Positions 14,290 to 29,291 of a DNA stretch of 29,291 nucleotides are shown here, in pieces. Origin of the DNA: a virus. Every line of letters begins with the position of its first letter. Positions within the stretch are counted from its first letter, which is position 1. Under the pieces are notes generated by a model. That model was given only the letters and a program-made list of their open reading frames with translations, was not told the DNA's origin and searched no databases. The stretch spans positions 1-29,291 of the IMG/VR virus record IMGVR_UViG_3300006802_000377; one strand, given 5' to 3'. A program made the translations under genes and the position numbers.

Positions 14290-16367
14290 GCGAGGATGTC
14301 CTTCGCGCCGAGGCCGGCGGTGTAGGAGGGGCGCAGGTTCTCGTCCTCGATCGAGGCATATTCGCCCTGCGTCATGTCCTGCGGCATGGCGAGCTTGTCG
14401 GGGAAGAATCGGATCACGCTCGTCGTCACGCCGTTCATCACGACCGTCGTTCGGTCGAACGCAGGGTTGGTCGGAGATGATCCCGATGTCGGAATGTCAT
14501 CGGGGCACGTCACGACGGTCACGCGGTCGCTCGCCATCGACTGATTGCGGTTTCCGTTGAGGTCGCCGTGTCCGCTGTTGACCGCGAACGAGTAGTTCGC
14601 GATGTACGCGCCCTTGCCGCCGGCGCGCTCGGGAAGCATCCGCTGCGGAGACTCGTTCATCGTCGTCGCGTCATGGAAGTCGGTGATCGTGGCAACGGGC
14701 ATCCTGAACTGCACGAGACGTGTCTTCGGCGTGACTGATACGCTCGGTACGGCGAACAGCCCCGTGCTGACATCGACCTTCGACCCTGCCTTCGACTTGT
14801 GCGGGCCGCGCCTCGGGAGCGGGATGTTCCCGTTTGATCCGCCAGTGTTCGGCGTGGCGTTGCGCTCGAGGTCCTTCCTGTTCACGCCACCAGGGACCCT
14901 GCCGATGATGTTTCCGCCCTGACCGACATATCGGTTGATGCGATCATCAGTCTGGCCGAACGCAGCGTCGAACAGCCCGTTCGGGAACGAGTAGACGACG
15001 GGATTCTGCTCGGAGAGCTGGAGCGTCGTCGGCATCTGGAACTCGGCGGAGTTGCCGAACTGCATCCTCGTCGCGTCGTAGACGCTCGGAGTCACCCTGA
15101 CGATGAGGGATCCGCCATACGCATCAGGCTGGAACGCGGGCACGAACTCGAACGTCCCGTTTTCCGTCTTGAGAGGCGAAAGGATGTTCCGCAGAAGAAG
15201 GTAGTCGTCCTTGATCGGCGTGACGCTTCCTGCTGATCCCTCTCCCTCGGTGGAGATGGCGGAGAACTCCTGCGAGGAAGTCGCCTTCGCGATGACCTCG
15301 AAGGTGATCGCGTTCTCGGTGAGCATGTTCTCCTCTGTGACGCGGATCTTCATGATGAAGTCCTGCGCCCAGTTGATCCTGTTCTGCGAAAGCCTGATGC
15401 AGAGCGTGAGGAGCGCGCCTGCGGTCACGTTCCTGTCGCCCTTGACCGAGGCGATGAAGTGCTTGATGCCGAGCAGCGCGTTGTCCTCGAGCGACCGCTC
15501 GAAGGTGTACGAGCAGTTGCCGACGCGGGCTGGCGCTGGCAAGCCGCGCGCGAACTCCTGGTCGGTCACGTCGAAGACGAGCCGCGTTCGGCTCTCGTCC
15601 ATCGCGTATTCCTGCCTCATTCGGCGGAATCCACGGTACAGGTTGCCGCTGACGAACCGGCGGTAGTAGTCGGCGAAGTGGCCTCCGAGCTCGTTCGACG
15701 TGATGAAGTCGACGACCACGTCGTTTCGCGCGTAGTCTCCGACCCTGTACGGATCATCGAATGTCACGCTGTCCGGAGATCCAGCCCTGTCGAATGCAAG
15801 TCCCGCGACACGGAACTGGCCTGGAGCGTAGAAGTTCGGCTGCGAGATGATCTGAAGCGATCCCGTCTTCCTGATCGTCGTCATGCCCATCTCGTCGATG
15901 GAGAACGAAGCCGTGCAGTAGAACGACTTGATTCGGTTCAGCGGAGCGGAAACCGCCTGCGCGAACTCGACGGTGAAGTTCACCATCAGCGCCTTCGTGC
16001 CGGTGATCTGCGTCACGTTCGCCCGGAAGAACGGGCCATAGCCGTTGTCGGTGACGTAGATGTCTCCAGCCGTGCTTCCCGCCGTCGTATCGACGAGCGT
16101 GAACTCATCCTGCCCGCCCGTTCCCGTCTCGATCTTGATCTTCAGCGACCTGCGCGGAACGTTCAGCTTGTTGACGAGGTCGATGCAGAAGTTCTGGTTG
16201 GACGAGAAATCGCCCGATTTGTTGAAGACGAGCGCCTCTCCGCTGACCGAGTGCAGGAGTACCTTCGACTGCGGTGAGTCGTGGTTCGCTGGGTTGTCGA
16301 TCCTGTATTCGGTGATCCGAACCTGATCGAGCGTGACGCCGTTGTAGAAGACGGTGGTTGAGCTCAT
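14286..16367 (-). CDS. Large tail protein, probable tail hub / baseplate component
   Basis: A 693-residue protein starting MSSTTVFYNGVTLDQVRIT, an opening common in phage tail-tip proteins. It has long beta-rich stretches (for example RRSLKIKIETGTGG and ALMVNFTVEFAQ), a basic linker (PRRGPHKSKAGSKVD) near residue 525, and a C-terminal beta region. In siphoviruses the gene after the tape measure codes distal tail and tail-tip hub proteins, so that is the likely role; no motif allows a firmer name. ATG 16367 is chosen because it overlaps the stop of the previous gene (ATGA); an upstream in-frame start five codons earlier would increase overlap. Confidence 0.68.
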   Translation of the reverse strand: MSSTTVFYNGVTLDQVRITEYRIDNPANHDSPQSKVLLHSVSGEALVFNKSGDFSSNQNFCIDLVNKLNVPRRSLKIKIETGTGGQDEFTLVDTTAGSTAGDIYVTDNGYGPFFRANVTQITGTKALMVNFTVEFAQAVSAPLNRIKSFYCTASFSIDEMGMTTIRKTGSLQIISQPNFYAPGQFRVAGLAFDRAGSPDSVTFDDPYRVGDYARNDVVVDFITSNELGGHFADYYRRFVSGNLYRGFRRMRQEYAMDESRTRLVFDVTDQEFARGLPAPARVGNCSYTFERSLEDNALLGIKHFIASVKGDRNVTAGALLTLCIRLSQNRINWAQDFIMKIRVTEENMLTENAITFEVIAKATSSQEFSAISTEGEGSAGSVTPIKDDYLLLRNILSPLKTENGTFEFVPAFQPDAYGGSLIVRVTPSVYDATRMQFGNSAEFQMPTTLQLSEQNPVVYSFPNGLFDAAFGQTDDRINRYVGQGGNIIGRVPGGVNRKDLERNATPNTGGSNGNIPLPRRGPHKSKAGSKVDVSTGLFAVPSVSVTPKTRLVQFRMPVATITDFHDATTMNESPQRMLPERAGGKGAYIANYSFAVNSGHGDLNGNRNQSMASDRVTVVTCPDDIPTSGSSPTNPAFDRTTVVMNGVTTSVIRFFPDKLAMPQDMTQGEYASIEDENLRPSYTAGLGAKDILA

Positions 16368-17656
16368 GGACGGTAATCCCACCAGTTGCGCTTGTTCGCT
16401 GCCTTGTTCGTGTATGCAGACGATGTGCTGAACCTGCCGCCGGTCATGGTCTCGAGGTCAAGCTCGAACTGAGACTGGACAACATTGCGCATGTTTGCGA
16501 GTCTTCCGGACAGCCAAGTCTCATATGCCATCCTCATCCACATGAAATGAGGCATCAATGACCCGCCAACACCCATTGCGCCCATCACGGCATTGCTCAT
16601 ATTTCCACTGAAAAGACCCGTTATCAAAGTCGACGCCGCCGATCCAAGCGTGAGCCCGAGAGATCCAATCTCAGCGGCAGATTGCGTGAAGAACTGCCTG
16701 ATCGGGCGCGTCTCCTGGATGAAGCCAAGCTGTGCCTGCGTGAATGCCCTGTATGACGAGACCACGCCACGGTTGTTGGCGATCTTCATCTGATCGAGAA
16801 TCTCGGCCATGCGGACATTCATGTTCATCTGCGCCATCGGGACGCTGACGTTGCCCATTCGGGTCCGCATGTCGACCGCAAGGTTCGGGACATACCTGAC
16901 GAAGCTGACGATGGACCTGATCGCCGTCCCGATCATGCTGATCGTCGCGAGGACCTTGCCGACCCCTGAGACGAGCGCCATGATCGCGCTCTGCTCGGAA
17001 ACAGGCTTCTCAGGCTTATCTGGACGAGCCGCCTTGTCCGATCCCGGAATCAGCCGTCCGGTCTTCAGGTCATATCTCGCACCGACCTTGAGCGCATCGC
17101 TTCCCGTGCCCATGACGCCAGGAATGCCGCCGAAACCAGAGCTCTGGAGCGAGAAGAATCCATACTGCTTCTGGTTCACAGGATCGGTCTCGAATCCGAA
17201 CGGAGTCGGGACCTTCGGCCTGTTCGCCTCTGCGGCTGAAGGCGGAAGGAGAAGTCCTCTCCTGATCCTGCCCATCGCCCGCATGTGCTCCGCCTGTGCG
17301 CGAAGGGGGGAGAATGGAGCTGAACTCGCATACGAAGGCGAGGCATATGGAGAGTAGGGGACGATCGCCTTGCGTGGATCGACATGGAACACGCGCTCGA
17401 CGCCTACACCGGCTCCCCTGCCTACTCGGCTACCGATTCCAGCCTCTCCGCCAAGCGATCGTCCGCTCGTTGCGATCCGGCGAAGCGTGTCCAGGATCGC
17501 ACGCACGTTGCCGTTGATCGCGCCGACGTTGACCTGAATGTGCTTCAGCGTCTCGAGGACGGAGTTCATTCCTCCGTCGCCGCCACCGCGAGCGGGATCT
17601 CCTCCGCCGTCGTCGGGGAACTGGAACACGAGGTTGTGCGTCGGGATATCCGCCAT
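16364..17656 (-). CDS. Candidate tape-measure-like or minor tail protein with hydrophobic core
   Basis: A 430-residue protein. The N-terminal 30 residues are Asp/Gly-rich, followed by a helix (SVLETLKHIQVNVGAINGNVR near residues 32-52), a Pro/Gly/Arg-rich middle, and from about residue 230 a helical, hydrophobic half with several membrane-like stretches (LVSGVGKVLATISMIGTAI, LGLTLGSAASTLITGLFSG). It lies after the tail assembly chaperone and before the tail-tip proteins, which is where tape measure genes lie. At 430 residues it would measure only a short tail of roughly 60-70 nm, assuming about 1.5 angstrom per residue. Alternatively it is a minor tail protein and the true tape measure is absent. 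Start overlaps previous stop. Confidence 0.6.
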   Translation of the reverse strand: MADIPTHNLVFQFPDDGGGDPARGGGDGGMNSVLETLKHIQVNVGAINGNVRAILDTLRRIATSGRSLGGEAGIGSRVGRGAGVGVERVFHVDPRKAIVPYSPYASPSYASSAPFSPLRAQAEHMRAMGRIRRGLLLPPSAAEANRPKVPTPFGFETDPVNQKQYGFFSLQSSGFGGIPGVMGTGSDALKVGARYDLKTGRLIPGSDKAARPDKPEKPVSEQSAIMALVSGVGKVLATISMIGTAIRSIVSFVRYVPNLAVDMRTRMGNVSVPMAQMNMNVRMAEILDQMKIANNRGVVSSYRAFTQAQLGFIQETRPIRQFFTQSAAEIGSLGLTLGSAASTLITGLFSGNMSNAVMGAMGVGGSLMPHFMWMRMAYETWLSGRLANMRNVVQSQFELDLETMTGGRFSTSSAYTNKAANKRNWWDYRP

Positions 17657-18456
17657 CAGCCGATCTCCAGCCTGTACGACAGGTTAGTCGCCGTCGTCGG
17701 GTAAGCCCTGCGGTATCGGTAGTACGTCACGCCGTCCTGCACGACGGTTCCCGTGGCGGGACCGCTCGGCGGCAGGAAGCCCGAGTGGTAGAACGGCTCG
17801 AGACCCTGCGCGGTCTTGAACGTCACGCCGCGCGCATGTATGTCCTGCGGGATCAGGAACCACGCATAGGCGCTCGATGTCCCCGCACGGTTCACCGATG
17901 TCGTGAAGTTCAGCGACCCGTTGTGGAACGACTCGCTCGGAAGGTCGCCCCATGCTGGCTGCGTTGCGCTGTAGCCGAACTTCATCGCGCCGGCGACAGG
18001 CCACGCAAGGGCATACGAGCAGACGAAGATGTCCGTGGCGGACAGGTGGAGCTGCGCCCGAGGCTCGAGCCTGACGGGACCGCTCGAGACGAACCTGATC
18101 GGGACCTGGAGGATCCCGCCGAGCTCGTGCTGGATCAGCGCGCTCCTGATGGCTCCCTGACGCTCGATGACGCCGTGGTCCTCGCCGGCGAGCTGCCGGC
18201 TCTGCTTGATGTCGTTGTCAGATGCCGTGCGGACGAACGTGGTGACGGCGAACCGCTCCGTGACGAACCCGAGGCCAGTTCGGTTCATCTCGTTCGTCGC
18301 GCCGGCGGCGAGAGGCGAGATCTGCACGACGAAGTCCATCGCCTCGGTGAAGCGCGGCTCGTTCGTCAGGTAGACGCGGCTCTCCGGCAGGTCAAGCGCG
18401 TCGACGAGCCTTGCGCGGAGCGAGCGGTAGAGATGTGCCTGCGTGATAACGATCAT
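17656..18456 (-). CDS. Tail terminator-like protein with an extra C-terminal domain
   Basis: A 266-residue protein. Residues 1-155 look like a tail completion or terminator protein: an N-terminal helix (LYRSLRARLVDALDLPESRVYL), then strands with FVVQISPLA and ERFAVTTFVRT, a helix, and a final strand, the general layout of gpU-like proteins. Residues 160-266 form an added Tyr/Trp/Gly-rich beta domain (FGYSATQPAWGDLP ... YPTTATNLSYRLEIG) of a type often seen on phage structural proteins. Terminator proteins are usually about 130-150 residues, so the second half is an extension. It overlaps the frameshift product's stop by ATGA. Confidence 0.6.
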   Translation of the reverse strand: MIVITQAHLYRSLRARLVDALDLPESRVYLTNEPRFTEAMDFVVQISPLAAGATNEMNRTGLGFVTERFAVTTFVRTASDNDIKQSRQLAGEDHGVIERQGAIRSALIQHELGGILQVPIRFVSSGPVRLEPRAQLHLSATDIFVCSYALAWPVAGAMKFGYSATQPAWGDLPSESFHNGSLNFTTSVNRAGTSSAYAWFLIPQDIHARGVTFKTAQGLEPFYHSGFLPPSGPATGTVVQDGVTYYRYRRAYPTTATNLSYRLEIG

Positions 18457-18964
18457 CGCGGGAACCCCGACTTCTGCTTCATCGCCTCGATCTTCATCTT
18501 GGCGATGTCCTTTGCGGATCCGCCGCAGTCCTTGATGAGGTCGGCATTCGCGTCGGCGGAGAGGCAGGCGGCGATACCCCGTGCGAACATCGCGCTCTGG
18601 ACAGCCAACGCGGTGCGGATGTTCTGGAATAGTCCCACTGCCTCCTCCTCGTTCTTGCAGGCACTCGGCGGGAACCCGTAGGCGGCGGCGAAGAGCGCAG
18701 CCGCCTTTAGGCGTTTCCCGCTTTGTTCATCAGCCTGGACAGGCGCACGCTGAGAGCCCAGATCTCATGGTCGCTGAGTCCTTCGTGGTTGTCCATCGCC
18801 GCCTTCATCGCCTCGATCACCGCCTCCTTCGGGGGGTTCTCGTCGCCCTTCGTCTTGTCGAGCAGGATGCTCGTGTAGACGAGGGAGTCGATGCGGTACT
18901 CCAGCTCTCCCTTCGCGAAGGTGAAGTTCCACTCGTCGTTGCCGATCTCGATTCGTTGTGGCAT
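18453..18964 (-). CDS. Tail assembly chaperone, long -1 frameshift product (gpGT-like)
   Basis: Slippage by -1 on GGGAAAC (18713-18719) joins 84 residues of the short form to 86 residues read in the -1 frame (first codons CGC CTA AAG), ending at 18453, for a predicted 170-residue protein. The -1 frame stays open across the stop of the short form and downstream. The extension is helical with a VGLFQNIRTALAVQSAMFARG stretch (near residues 110-130) and ends KQKSGFPR. Without frameshifting the extension would need a GTG start at 18638 with SD-like GAGGAGGAG too close to it. Known role of this arrangement: the minor fusion binds the tail tube protein while the G part coats the tape measure. Confidence 0.78.
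18684..18719 (-). promoter_or_regulatory. Programmed -1 ribosomal frameshift site
   Basis: The slippery heptamer GGGAAAC (18713-18719) is followed by a 7-nt spacer GCCTAAA, which contains the zero-frame stop, and then a GC stem GGCGGC (18700-18705) / GCCGCC (18684-18689) with a 10-nt loop. Slippery site, spacing and stem all match canonical -1 frameshift signals; lambda G-T uses GGGAAAG. Confidence 0.85.
18707..18964 (-). CDS. Tail assembly chaperone, short form (gpG-like)
   Basis: An 85-residue, mostly helical, acidic protein coded right after the tail tube gene; SD AGGA precedes the ATG. Lambda-like siphoviruses have here gene G, whose product and -1 frameshift extension gpGT chaperone the tape measure during tail assembly. 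The gene ends with codons GCG GGA AAC GCC TAA, giving the slippery heptamer GGGAAAC in the exact X XXY YYZ phase two codons before the stop. Sequence similarity to lambda gpG is not claimed; the call rests on size, position and the frameshift signal. Confidence 0.8.
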   Translation of the reverse strand: MPQRIEIGNDEWNFTFAKGELEYRIDSLVYTSILLDKTKGDENPPKEAVIEAMKAAMDNHEGLSDHEIWALSVRLSRLMNKAGNA

Positions 18965-18974
18965 CTCTCGTCCT

Positions 18975-19517
18975 TTATGTTCCGCCCTTTGTGCTTGTCG
19001 TCAAGGGCGTGTTCGTTCCGTCAGCCACGCTCGTGAACGAGAGCGCGATGCGCTTGACGGTGTTTCCCATGTCCATGTACTCGGGTCCCGCGCTCAACAT
19101 GCAGTTGAACCTGTAGACCGTCTCTCCGGCGCGGTCAGGCTCGACCATGATCGTGACCACGCGGGTTCCGCTCGTCACGACCACTCCGCCCACCGTGGCC
19201 TCCTCGCCTTCATCCGTGATGATGGGGTTGTTCACGATTCCCTGCCGGCACTTCTTGAGGAGCTTGTTGAGCTCGCCCTGGTCCCACGCGACCATCGTGA
19301 AGTCGATCGACCACGTCGTGCCGGCGAGCACCGCCTCCGCGATCATGTCGCCGAGGTCGCTTCGCGAGAACGTGCGGTAGTGGTCGCGGCCCGTGATGCG
19401 GACGAGATCCTCGTTGTCGGTTCGACCGAGCTCGGAGAGGTTGGATCCGCTCTGGTTCGTGCCAGCGCCCCAGTAGATCTTCGTCGGTCCATTTACATGA
19501 AAGTCGCCTGCGGCCAT
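18975..19517 (-). CDS. Major tail tube protein
   Basis: A 180-residue protein, mainly beta, with a short N-terminal motif (MAAGDFHVNGPTKIYWG), a middle with GTTWSIDFTMVAWDQGELNKLL and VTSGTRVVTIMVEP, and an end LSFTSVADGTNTPLTT. Length, all-beta character and position just before the frameshifted chaperone gene match the tube subunit of siphovirus tails, where hexamer rings stack around the tape measure. SD GGAG is 7 nt before the ATG, and only 1 nt separates it from the previous stop. No Ig-like C-terminal domain is present. Confidence 0.78.
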   Translation of the reverse strand: MAAGDFHVNGPTKIYWGAGTNQSGSNLSELGRTDNEDLVRITGRDHYRTFSRSDLGDMIAEAVLAGTTWSIDFTMVAWDQGELNKLLKKCRQGIVNNPIITDEGEEATVGGVVVTSGTRVVTIMVEPDRAGETVYRFNCMLSAGPEYMDMGNTVKRIALSFTSVADGTNTPLTTSTKGGT

Positions 19518-19518
19518 G

Positions 19519-20019
19519 TCATGCTCCAGCGATGCGGTCCATCGCGTTGTTCACGATATCGTTCATGTCATCCCTCGAGATGTCGTTCCACGGCCTCGAG
19601 GGAACCCTCACCTTCTTCTTGACGACGAAGTCGACGCCCTCGGTCAGCTCGGCGAAGTTTCTCATCCTGCGGATGCCCTTCGTTCGACCGAGATACACGT
19701 TGCCGAACTCCCCTCCGCGCGCTTGCTCGACGCCGTAGTCCCTTGACAGGATAGCGACGTTCACCTGCACTCCGCCATTGCCAAGCGACGACATTTCGGG
19801 GTTGCCGACCTTCACGGACTGGTACAGGTTCCCCGTGTCAAGAAGCGGCCTGTCCGCGTTCGTCCTGTCCGCCTCGAACGGGATGAACTTGCTGTCCCAG
19901 ATCGCGAGCGGCTCGAGCCGAACGCGGTTTCCCCCCTGCGCGCCCTCGCTGCGCTCCAGGTTCCGGCGAAGCGCCTCCGCCACGTCGTTCGACACGGCTG
20001 CGACGATCGAGCGGATCAT
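19519..20019 (-). CDS. Head-tail joining protein, HK97 gp10-like
   Basis: A 166-residue protein with an N-terminal helix (VSNDVAEALRRNLERSEG), then PLLDTGNLYQSVKVGNPEM, a motif typical of the HK97 gp10 / phage virion morphogenesis group (P-LxDTGxLxxSV), then strands, a GVEQARGGEFGNVYLGR segment and a helical C-terminus (DDMNDIVNNAMDRI). Such proteins sit at the head-tail interface. ATG 20019 has GAAGG 6 nt upstream. A GTG at 20040 overlapping the previous stop (GTGA) would add seven residues and is a real alternative. Confidence 0.78.
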   Translation of the reverse strand: MIRSIVAAVSNDVAEALRRNLERSEGAQGGNRVRLEPLAIWDSKFIPFEADRTNADRPLLDTGNLYQSVKVGNPEMSSLGNGGVQVNVAILSRDYGVEQARGGEFGNVYLGRTKGIRRMRNFAELTEGVDFVVKKKVRVPSRPWNDISRDDMNDIVNNAMDRIAGA

Positions 20020-20036
20020 GGCGAGCCTTCGCGGAG

Positions 20037-20528
20037 TCACGATGCCGTGTACTTCCTTCTCGGGAAGAACTCGCTGTCGGCGACCATCCCGAGGTTGCCG
20101 CGCTGGACCTGGCTGATGACCGACAGCATCGGCTTCGATGCGTCGATGTTCGCCGCGACGGGGAACACCCTGCCGCCGTCGCGGAGATCGAGCAGCATCG
20201 CGTTCGCCTTGTCGATCCTGTCCTTGATTGCATCGCCGAACGGACCGCCACGGCGCGCGAGCAGGATGCCGAGCGCCAGGTCGCACACGACGCCGATCAG
20301 GCTCCAGTTCGCGGACGACTGGAGCGCATCGAGGTCGGACTCGTCGTACACGCCGCCACGGAGCGCATAGGTCTGCACCTCGTGCGATGCCCGAGTGAGC
20401 GCCGTGACGATGATCGTGTTCGTGTTGTCGACGACGCCGTCCGCCTCCGCGTCGATCCCGAGCTCCGATAGGAGCCGCTGGTCGACCGCAAGGATGAACT
20501 GCGCCACGGTCGCGTATGGAACGGGCAT
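20037..20528 (-). CDS. Head-tail connector protein, DUF1320 / Mu gp36-like
   Basis: A 163-residue protein, mainly helical: YATVAQFILAVDQRLLSELG at the start, then NTIIVTALTRASHEVQTYALRGGVYDES, helices covering WSLIGVVCDLALGILLARRG, and a C-terminal MVADSEFFPR. This pattern (Y-x-T at the start, a residue series predicting four helices, about 140-165 residues) is that of DUF1320 proteins such as Mu gp36, adaptor proteins below the portal. SD GGAGG lies just before the ATG and directly after the hairpin that follows the capsid gene. Confidence 0.75.
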   Translation of the reverse strand: MPVPYATVAQFILAVDQRLLSELGIDAEADGVVDNTNTIIVTALTRASHEVQTYALRGGVYDESDLDALQSSANWSLIGVVCDLALGILLARRGGPFGDAIKDRIDKANAMLLDLRDGGRVFPVAANIDASKPMLSVISQVQRGNLGMVADSEFFPRRKYTAS

Positions 20529-20542
20529 GTGCCCTCCGATAA

Positions 20543-20576
20543 GGGGAGGGATGGGTTCTTAGGCCCACCCCTCCCC
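20543..20576 (-). terminator. Strong G-rich hairpin after the capsid gene
   Basis: Arms 20543-20555 and 20564-20576 pair over 13 bp (one G-U) around an 8-nt loop. On the minus strand it follows the major capsid stop by 26 nt and precedes the SD of the next gene. There is only a short TTAT after it, so it may be a partial terminator, an RNA processing or stability hairpin that keeps capsid mRNA abundant, rather than a full stop. Confidence 0.65.
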
Positions 20577-20602
20577 CCACGAAAAGAGAGAGATCGTCCC
20601 GA

Positions 20603-28676: not shown

Positions 28677-29291
28677 CTACCAAATGGCGCGCGGGTCGTC
28701 GGGCATGATCGCGAAGCCGAAGCGGTTCGCCTGCGCGACCCGCGCGGGGTCGCGAGTTGCAAGCGGTCCCTTGCCCTTCAATGCGACGACGACCCCGCGC
28801 GGGTCGGTCGTTCGGTCGTCGGTTTCGTCGCCATTGATGCATTGCCAAGCGCGCCCGCCGATGGTGAACGCGCGCGGCATCGGGCGCGCGTAGCGTCCGA
28901 TGCCGAGTCCCGCGAATACCACTGCGACATTGCCACCAGTGGCGAGATACTCGCACGCGAGTTGCTCCGATGCGCATTCGCTCCATGAGTAGACGATCCG
29001 CGTAGCGTTCGCGAATCCGCCCGCGCGCATCGCGAGGCGGACCGCGTACGGTCTCTTCGTGTACGCGTACCCTTCGATCTTGAATCGCGCGAAAGCCGCG
29101 CCGAGTTCGTCGAACGTCTCAAAGGGCAGGTCCGTGCCGACGTTCAACCGAGCGACGGCACGGACGCCGAGCGATGACGCGAGACGCGAGACGCGCCCGA
29201 TGCAGCGGGCGAGTTCCGCGCCCGCGGCTACGGGGTGTTCCCGCAGGGCGACGACCCGTCGCGCGCGGGCGCGCATGATGGTATCGGCGCC
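28677..29291 (-). CDS. GP88-family phage protein, 5' end beyond the window
   Basis: A frame of 205 codons open to the right edge and ending at TAG. The visible part matches the pattern I know for gene product 88 proteins of mycobacteriophages and many other phages: ARLNVGTDLPFETF, then an EGYAYTKRP segment, TRIVYSWSE, GGNVAVVFAG, and CINGDETDDRTTDPRGVVVALKGKG near the C-terminus. The Cys-rich N-terminal part usual in the family would lie off the edge, so an ATG at 29276 is probably internal. The function of the family is not known to me. Codon use is strikingly rich in CGCG compared with the structural genes. The gene has its own terminator. Confidence 0.8.
   Translation of the reverse strand, partial: GADTIMRARARRVVALREHPVAAGAELARCIGRVSRLASSLGVRAVARLNVGTDLPFETFDELGAAFARFKIEGYAYTKRPYAVRLAMRAGGFANATRIVYSWSECASEQLACEYLATGGNVAVVFAGLGIGRYARPMPRAFTIGGRAWQCINGDETDDRTTDPRGVVVALKGKGPLATRDPARVAQANRFGFAIMPDDPRAIW

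Follow-up and report, generated by a model that had tools for sequence, protein, structure and literature searches.

The window analysed here, the whole 29,291-nt stretch, is a viral metagenome record whose structural genes are encoded on the minus strand. The genes follow one another in the order terminase, portal, scaffold, capsid, a putative tail tube gene, a pair of overlapping reading frames, and genes for proteins of ~258-271, 391-520 and 676-703 aa. The first frame of the pair (18707-18964, minus strand) is an 85-codon gene that starts at an ATG with AAAGGACGAGAG upstream and specifies a short, G-like product of 85 aa, a putative tail assembly chaperone. The 3′-end of this gene reads ...AAA GCG GGA AAC GCC TAA. 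As an earlier note on this DNA had claimed, the heptamer GGGAAAC is present near the stop in exact X_XXY_YYZ phase (18719-18713, minus strand); it is read as G_GGA_AAC within the overlap of the two frames, and the 0-frame stop codon TAA (18709-18707, minus strand) lies one codon past it. The 7 nt that follow, GCCTAAA, form the proposed 7-nt spacer between the heptamer and a GGCGGC arm. In the -1 frame, a T-like extension beginning with GKRLKAAALFAAAYGFPPSAC (18453-18719, minus strand) is open for 86 codons past the heptamer and ends at a TGA (18455-18453) sharing an ATGA with the start codon of the next gene (ATG, 18456-18454). Both the open frame and the overlap had been described in the note, and the predicted frameshift fusion, computed at 170 aa, has the length given there for the long product.

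The pair is located between the putative tube gene and a tape-measure candidate, with one gene intervening; tube and tape measure are assigned mainly by position. The upstream neighbour (18975-19517, minus strand) encodes a 180-aa protein that is a putative tail tube protein by position only, and the family searches returned no match for it. The downstream neighbour, which overlaps the extension through the ATGA, encodes a putative tail protein of 266 aa (17656-18456, minus strand). It is followed by the candidate short tape-measure protein of 430 aa (16364-17656, minus strand), which has a variable middle and one hydrophobic stretch. Among the relatives L062, L063, L071, L073 and L038 and the window, this protein ranges from 391 to 520 aa between flanking genes of near-constant length, and because its length varies it fits a short tape measure. 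It has a conserved N-terminal helix and, in most members, a C-terminal MTGGRF...WW. No confident family match was found for the candidate, and the one PHROG tape-measure match is weak and confined to L038 (E 0.03). Elsewhere on the minus strand of the window, a 353-aa ORF with a GTG start (19519-20580) overlaps a 163-aa ORF (20037-20528) and is probably over-extended, its first half resembling a non-coding frame. The protein adjoining the terminase (28677-29276, minus strand) matches Pfam GP88 at 38.4 bits, above the cut-off.

Heptamers of the XXXYYYZ form occur in phase nine times in the 5638 codons of 14 window genes, and by our arithmetic from this count a given gene has a chance of ~0.5% of carrying one within its last three codons. 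On its own the heptamer is only mildly unusual, and its conservation is the deciding evidence. A second in-phase GGGAAAC is found at 19068-19062 (minus strand), inside the putative tail tube gene and 29 codons before its stop; as a shift site it is probably a chance occurrence, since the -1 frame stays open only briefly beyond it.

Homologues were collected by scans with the short protein, the tube candidate, the next gene, and alignments of the fusion and extension as queries. About 23 contigs including the window were retrieved, and around the site they represent 22 distinct sequences. In all 22 the heptamer is in exact phase and reads either GGGAAAC or, in L033 and L034-L036, GGGAAAA, and every homologue has its 0-frame stop, TAA or TGA, one codon past it. 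The earlier note had suggested checking that homologues keep heptamer and extension; they do so in 22/22 distinct sequences, and none of the homologues found has a broken heptamer together with an extension that carries its own start and Shine-Dalgarno sequence. A search blind to the site, with the 266-aa neighbour alone as query, recovered 17 contigs that were all already in the set, with the heptamer in 17/17. Among 2.9 million contigs, a 35-nt DNA pattern containing the heptamer matched 20, all of the window's phage group. The G-like proteins diverge to 20% identity (the short protein of L037 compared with that of the window) while heptamer, phase and stop stay fixed. Because the heptamer is conserved in 22 distinct homologous sequences, a chance origin is removed altogether. 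Two contigs binned into metagenome-assembled genomes (MAGs) carry relatives and are labelled as an alphaproteobacterium and an actinobacterium, labels that are unreliable as host evidence given how phage contigs are binned; a terminase family was looked for in those two MAGs and was not found.

The pattern of substitution changes at the heptamer. Upstream, mean pairwise diversity is highest at the third position of the 0 frame (0.47 versus 0.28 and 0.20 at the other positions); downstream, it is highest at the third position of the -1 frame (0.40 versus 0.14 and 0.09), so that the fast-changing codon position switches frame at the heptamer. From the heptamer onward the -1 frame bears the mark of protein-level selection: it encodes the peptide GKR[LM]KAAAxFAAAYGFPPSxC, which is invariant except at the marked positions even in L037, and its codons 1-21 form the most conserved peptide in the whole protein. 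In the window the -1 frame opens 15 codons before the heptamer and contains no ATG, GTG or TTG until codon 27. Between the heptamer and this possible internal start, third positions of the -1 frame vary in 22/24 cases and the other positions in 13/47 (Fisher p ~2e-7).

The choice of codons at the site points in the same direction. Glycine is encoded by GGG in 56/498 cases in the 14 window genes, and GGG AAA would be expected in ~0.3% of Gly-Lys codon choices. The protein sequence does not account for the invariant AAA within GGG AAA, because AAA makes up only 6/232 of the lysine codons in these genes. The last base of the heptamer (Z) seems, from the alignment, to be held to C or A by the -1-frame protein: the -1 frame must encode Arg next (CGN or AGR), so GGGAAAC and GGGAAAA are allowed and GGGAAAG is forbidden. 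Comparison of the homologous sequences demonstrates both coding in two frames and selection on the slippery site.

A GC-rich hairpin (18680-18706, minus strand) begins 6-7 nt past the heptamer, within the 5-9 nt expected of a stimulatory structure. Its arms, 18706-18696 and 18690-18680, enclose a 5-nt loop and contain one U-C mismatch in the window. The 6-bp GC stem described in the earlier note is present as the core, where GGCGGC (18705-18700) pairs with GCCGCC (18686-18681), and the real stem is longer: from the A18706-U18680 pair outward, the fold comprises 7 bp, a 1x1 mismatch and 3 further bp (-21.5 kcal/mol). Its stability is ordinary for the GC composition, no better than that of shuffled sequences (z = -1.0). 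Across 18 distinct sequences 94.9% of hairpin cells are paired, and the pairs are mostly invariant among relatives, with G-U variants and one compensatory switch. At alignment columns 21 and 39, which are G-C, G-U or C-G, the C-G pair of L031 and L032 represents a double change. This conservation lends modest support, as judged from alignment, to a stimulatory structure. A dnaX-type upstream Shine-Dalgarno stimulator was looked for by eye, and no conserved SD-like string was found between -32 and -1.

These observations are best accounted for by a programmed -1 ribosomal frameshift of the lambda G/GT type, to which we assign a probability of about 0.92. The majority of ribosomes would read the 85-codon gene to the TAA and release the short protein. 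In a minority, tRNA-Gly on GGA and tRNA-Asn on AAC would shift back by one base onto GGG AAA, with the help of the hairpin that begins 6-7 nt downstream; the slipped ribosomes would go on in the -1 frame to produce the 170-aa fusion, such that the frequency of slippage would set the ratio of short to long form. We infer both the slippage itself and its frequency. In E. coli, AAC performs less well than AAG as the second codon (PMC5009743), and the efficiency of frameshifting at an AAC-ending site in the phage's own host is uncertain. By analogy with lambda, the N-terminal part shared by both forms would be expected to cover the tape-measure protein, with the less abundant long form bringing in tail-tube subunits through its extension.

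Gene order, protein sizes, architecture and the confidently modelled short form make the tail chaperone role likely. AlphaFold2 predicts the short form as a beta hairpin with three helices (mean pLDDT 91) and the extension as all-helical at lower confidence (pLDDT 77). The best match to the short form in BFVD is an unnamed viral protein of the same size, A0A516L3X5, which matches at full length (E 0.002, TM 0.75); the best BFVD match to the extension is weak. Searches of short form and extension against Pfam, PHROG and PDB sequences returned nothing convincing. None of 16 G-like members had a confident match in Pfam or PHROG, the extensions had no confident PHROG match, and Pfam, run on the window fusion only, gave no match to a tail assembly chaperone (TAC) family. 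A PDB fold search with the short form was not significant (best E 0.38). TAC families share little sequence, and the missing family match therefore weakens membership and does not exclude it. The G/GT chaperone pair claimed in the earlier note accordingly holds as to order, sizes and architecture, and lacks a match to a sequence family or structure database. It is unlikely that a real -1 frameshift here yields a product other than a tail chaperone, for example another morphogenesis protein made in two forms. Such a product would agree with the failure of every library searched to link it to a known chaperone by family or fold, and with the single gene that sits before the tape-measure candidate; position, sizes, fusion design and low similarity are, however, typical of the chaperone family, and an intervening gene has also been described for KL1 and HK97 (PMC3483164).

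The frameshift reading also has to be weighed against other ways of making the extension. A possible internal GTG start at 18638, with GAGGAGGAGG upstream, would yield a 61-aa product (18453-18638, minus strand) that could be a rival or an additional product. The locus might then make three proteins, namely the short form, the frameshift fusion and a free C-terminal part initiated at this GTG or, in some relatives, at an ATGA, although we consider this rather improbable. That the extension is a separate small gene, expressed as a free 61-aa protein from GTG 18638 with no frameshift at all, is very unlikely. The start is preceded in the window by an AGGAGG-like Shine-Dalgarno sequence, and an ATG, GTG or TTG is found at the same or a neighbouring codon in 20/22 distinct sequences, preceded by the Glu codons GAGGAGG. 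The start is lost, however, in L028 (TTA) and L037 (ACC), and the protein family is therefore, on the aligned sequences, not dependent on it. Furthermore, over the 24 codons that precede it the -1-frame protein sequence is conserved and changes cluster at third positions, a pattern for which initiation at codon 27 cannot account; the invariant GGGAAA would be left without explanation.

There is similarly little to commend termination-reinitiation at the 0-frame stop, by which a free T-like protein would be started from an ATGA. A -1-frame ATG overlaps the 0-frame TGA in this manner only in L031, L033, L034, L036 and L037; at this place the sequence is CTA or CTG in the window and most relatives, the heptamer is equally invariant with and without the ATGA, and reinitiation accounts for neither the heptamer nor the conserved peptide that precedes the internal start. 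The identical two frames would also be fused by transcriptional slippage or by an assembly indel, but the chance of either is negligible, as the site has only GGGAAAC and no long homopolymer, and the same frame arrangement recurs in independent assemblies from many samples and in diverged sequence.

A -1 slip that provides two forms of a tail chaperone has long been known in phage lambda and many other phages. Frameshifting of this type is widespread in tail chaperone genes, and the product ratio in lambda is ~30:1 (PMC5009743). The programmed frameshift proposed here resembles that of lambda gpG/gpGT in that two small proteins share one start, a -1 shift takes place at a GGGAAA-type heptamer ending the short ORF, and the genes lie between those of tube and tape measure, both of which are candidates assigned mainly by position in the window. 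The systems differ in that no sequence similarity is detectable, the lambda heptamer is GGGAAAG whereas that of the window's group ends in C or A, and the window has one gene before the tape-measure candidate and products of 85 and 170 aa. In gp18/gp19 of Burkholderia phage KL1 a shift is predicted at a GGGAAAC directly before the stop, and a tail gene likewise intervenes before the tape measure, but the proteins are longer, at 142 and 264 aa (PMC3483164). GGGAAAC is also given as the site of the g-t shift in haloarchaeal virus HCTV-1 (PMC5009743) and has been proposed for the G/GT tape-measure chaperones of Caulobacter phage Colossus (PMC3556154), both of which have genomes unrelated to the window as far as tested.

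Among 50,697 phage records, near-DNA and tblastn searches with the window region, the tube candidate, the fusion and the 698-aa protein gave no match, as did tblastn with the 689-aa protein of L063; the extension of L037 gave only weak matches (E ~5). Rfam returned no match.

In kind the system is ordinary and of low surprise, being a probable sequence-orphan case of a well-known type of frameshifted chaperone. Two forms of a small tail-building helper protein very probably arise in this uncultured tailed phage through a slip at GGGAAAC. The locus contributes a well-conserved example of a G/GT-type frameshift from a phage lineage for which no cultured relative was found and which is absent from the protein-family libraries; automatic gene calling would give a truncated gene plus a gap here. 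If three products are made, their ratio would be set jointly by frameshifting and internal initiation. The slippery site also illustrates how the last base of a heptamer can seemingly be fixed by the encoded protein, here through an Arg in the -1 frame.
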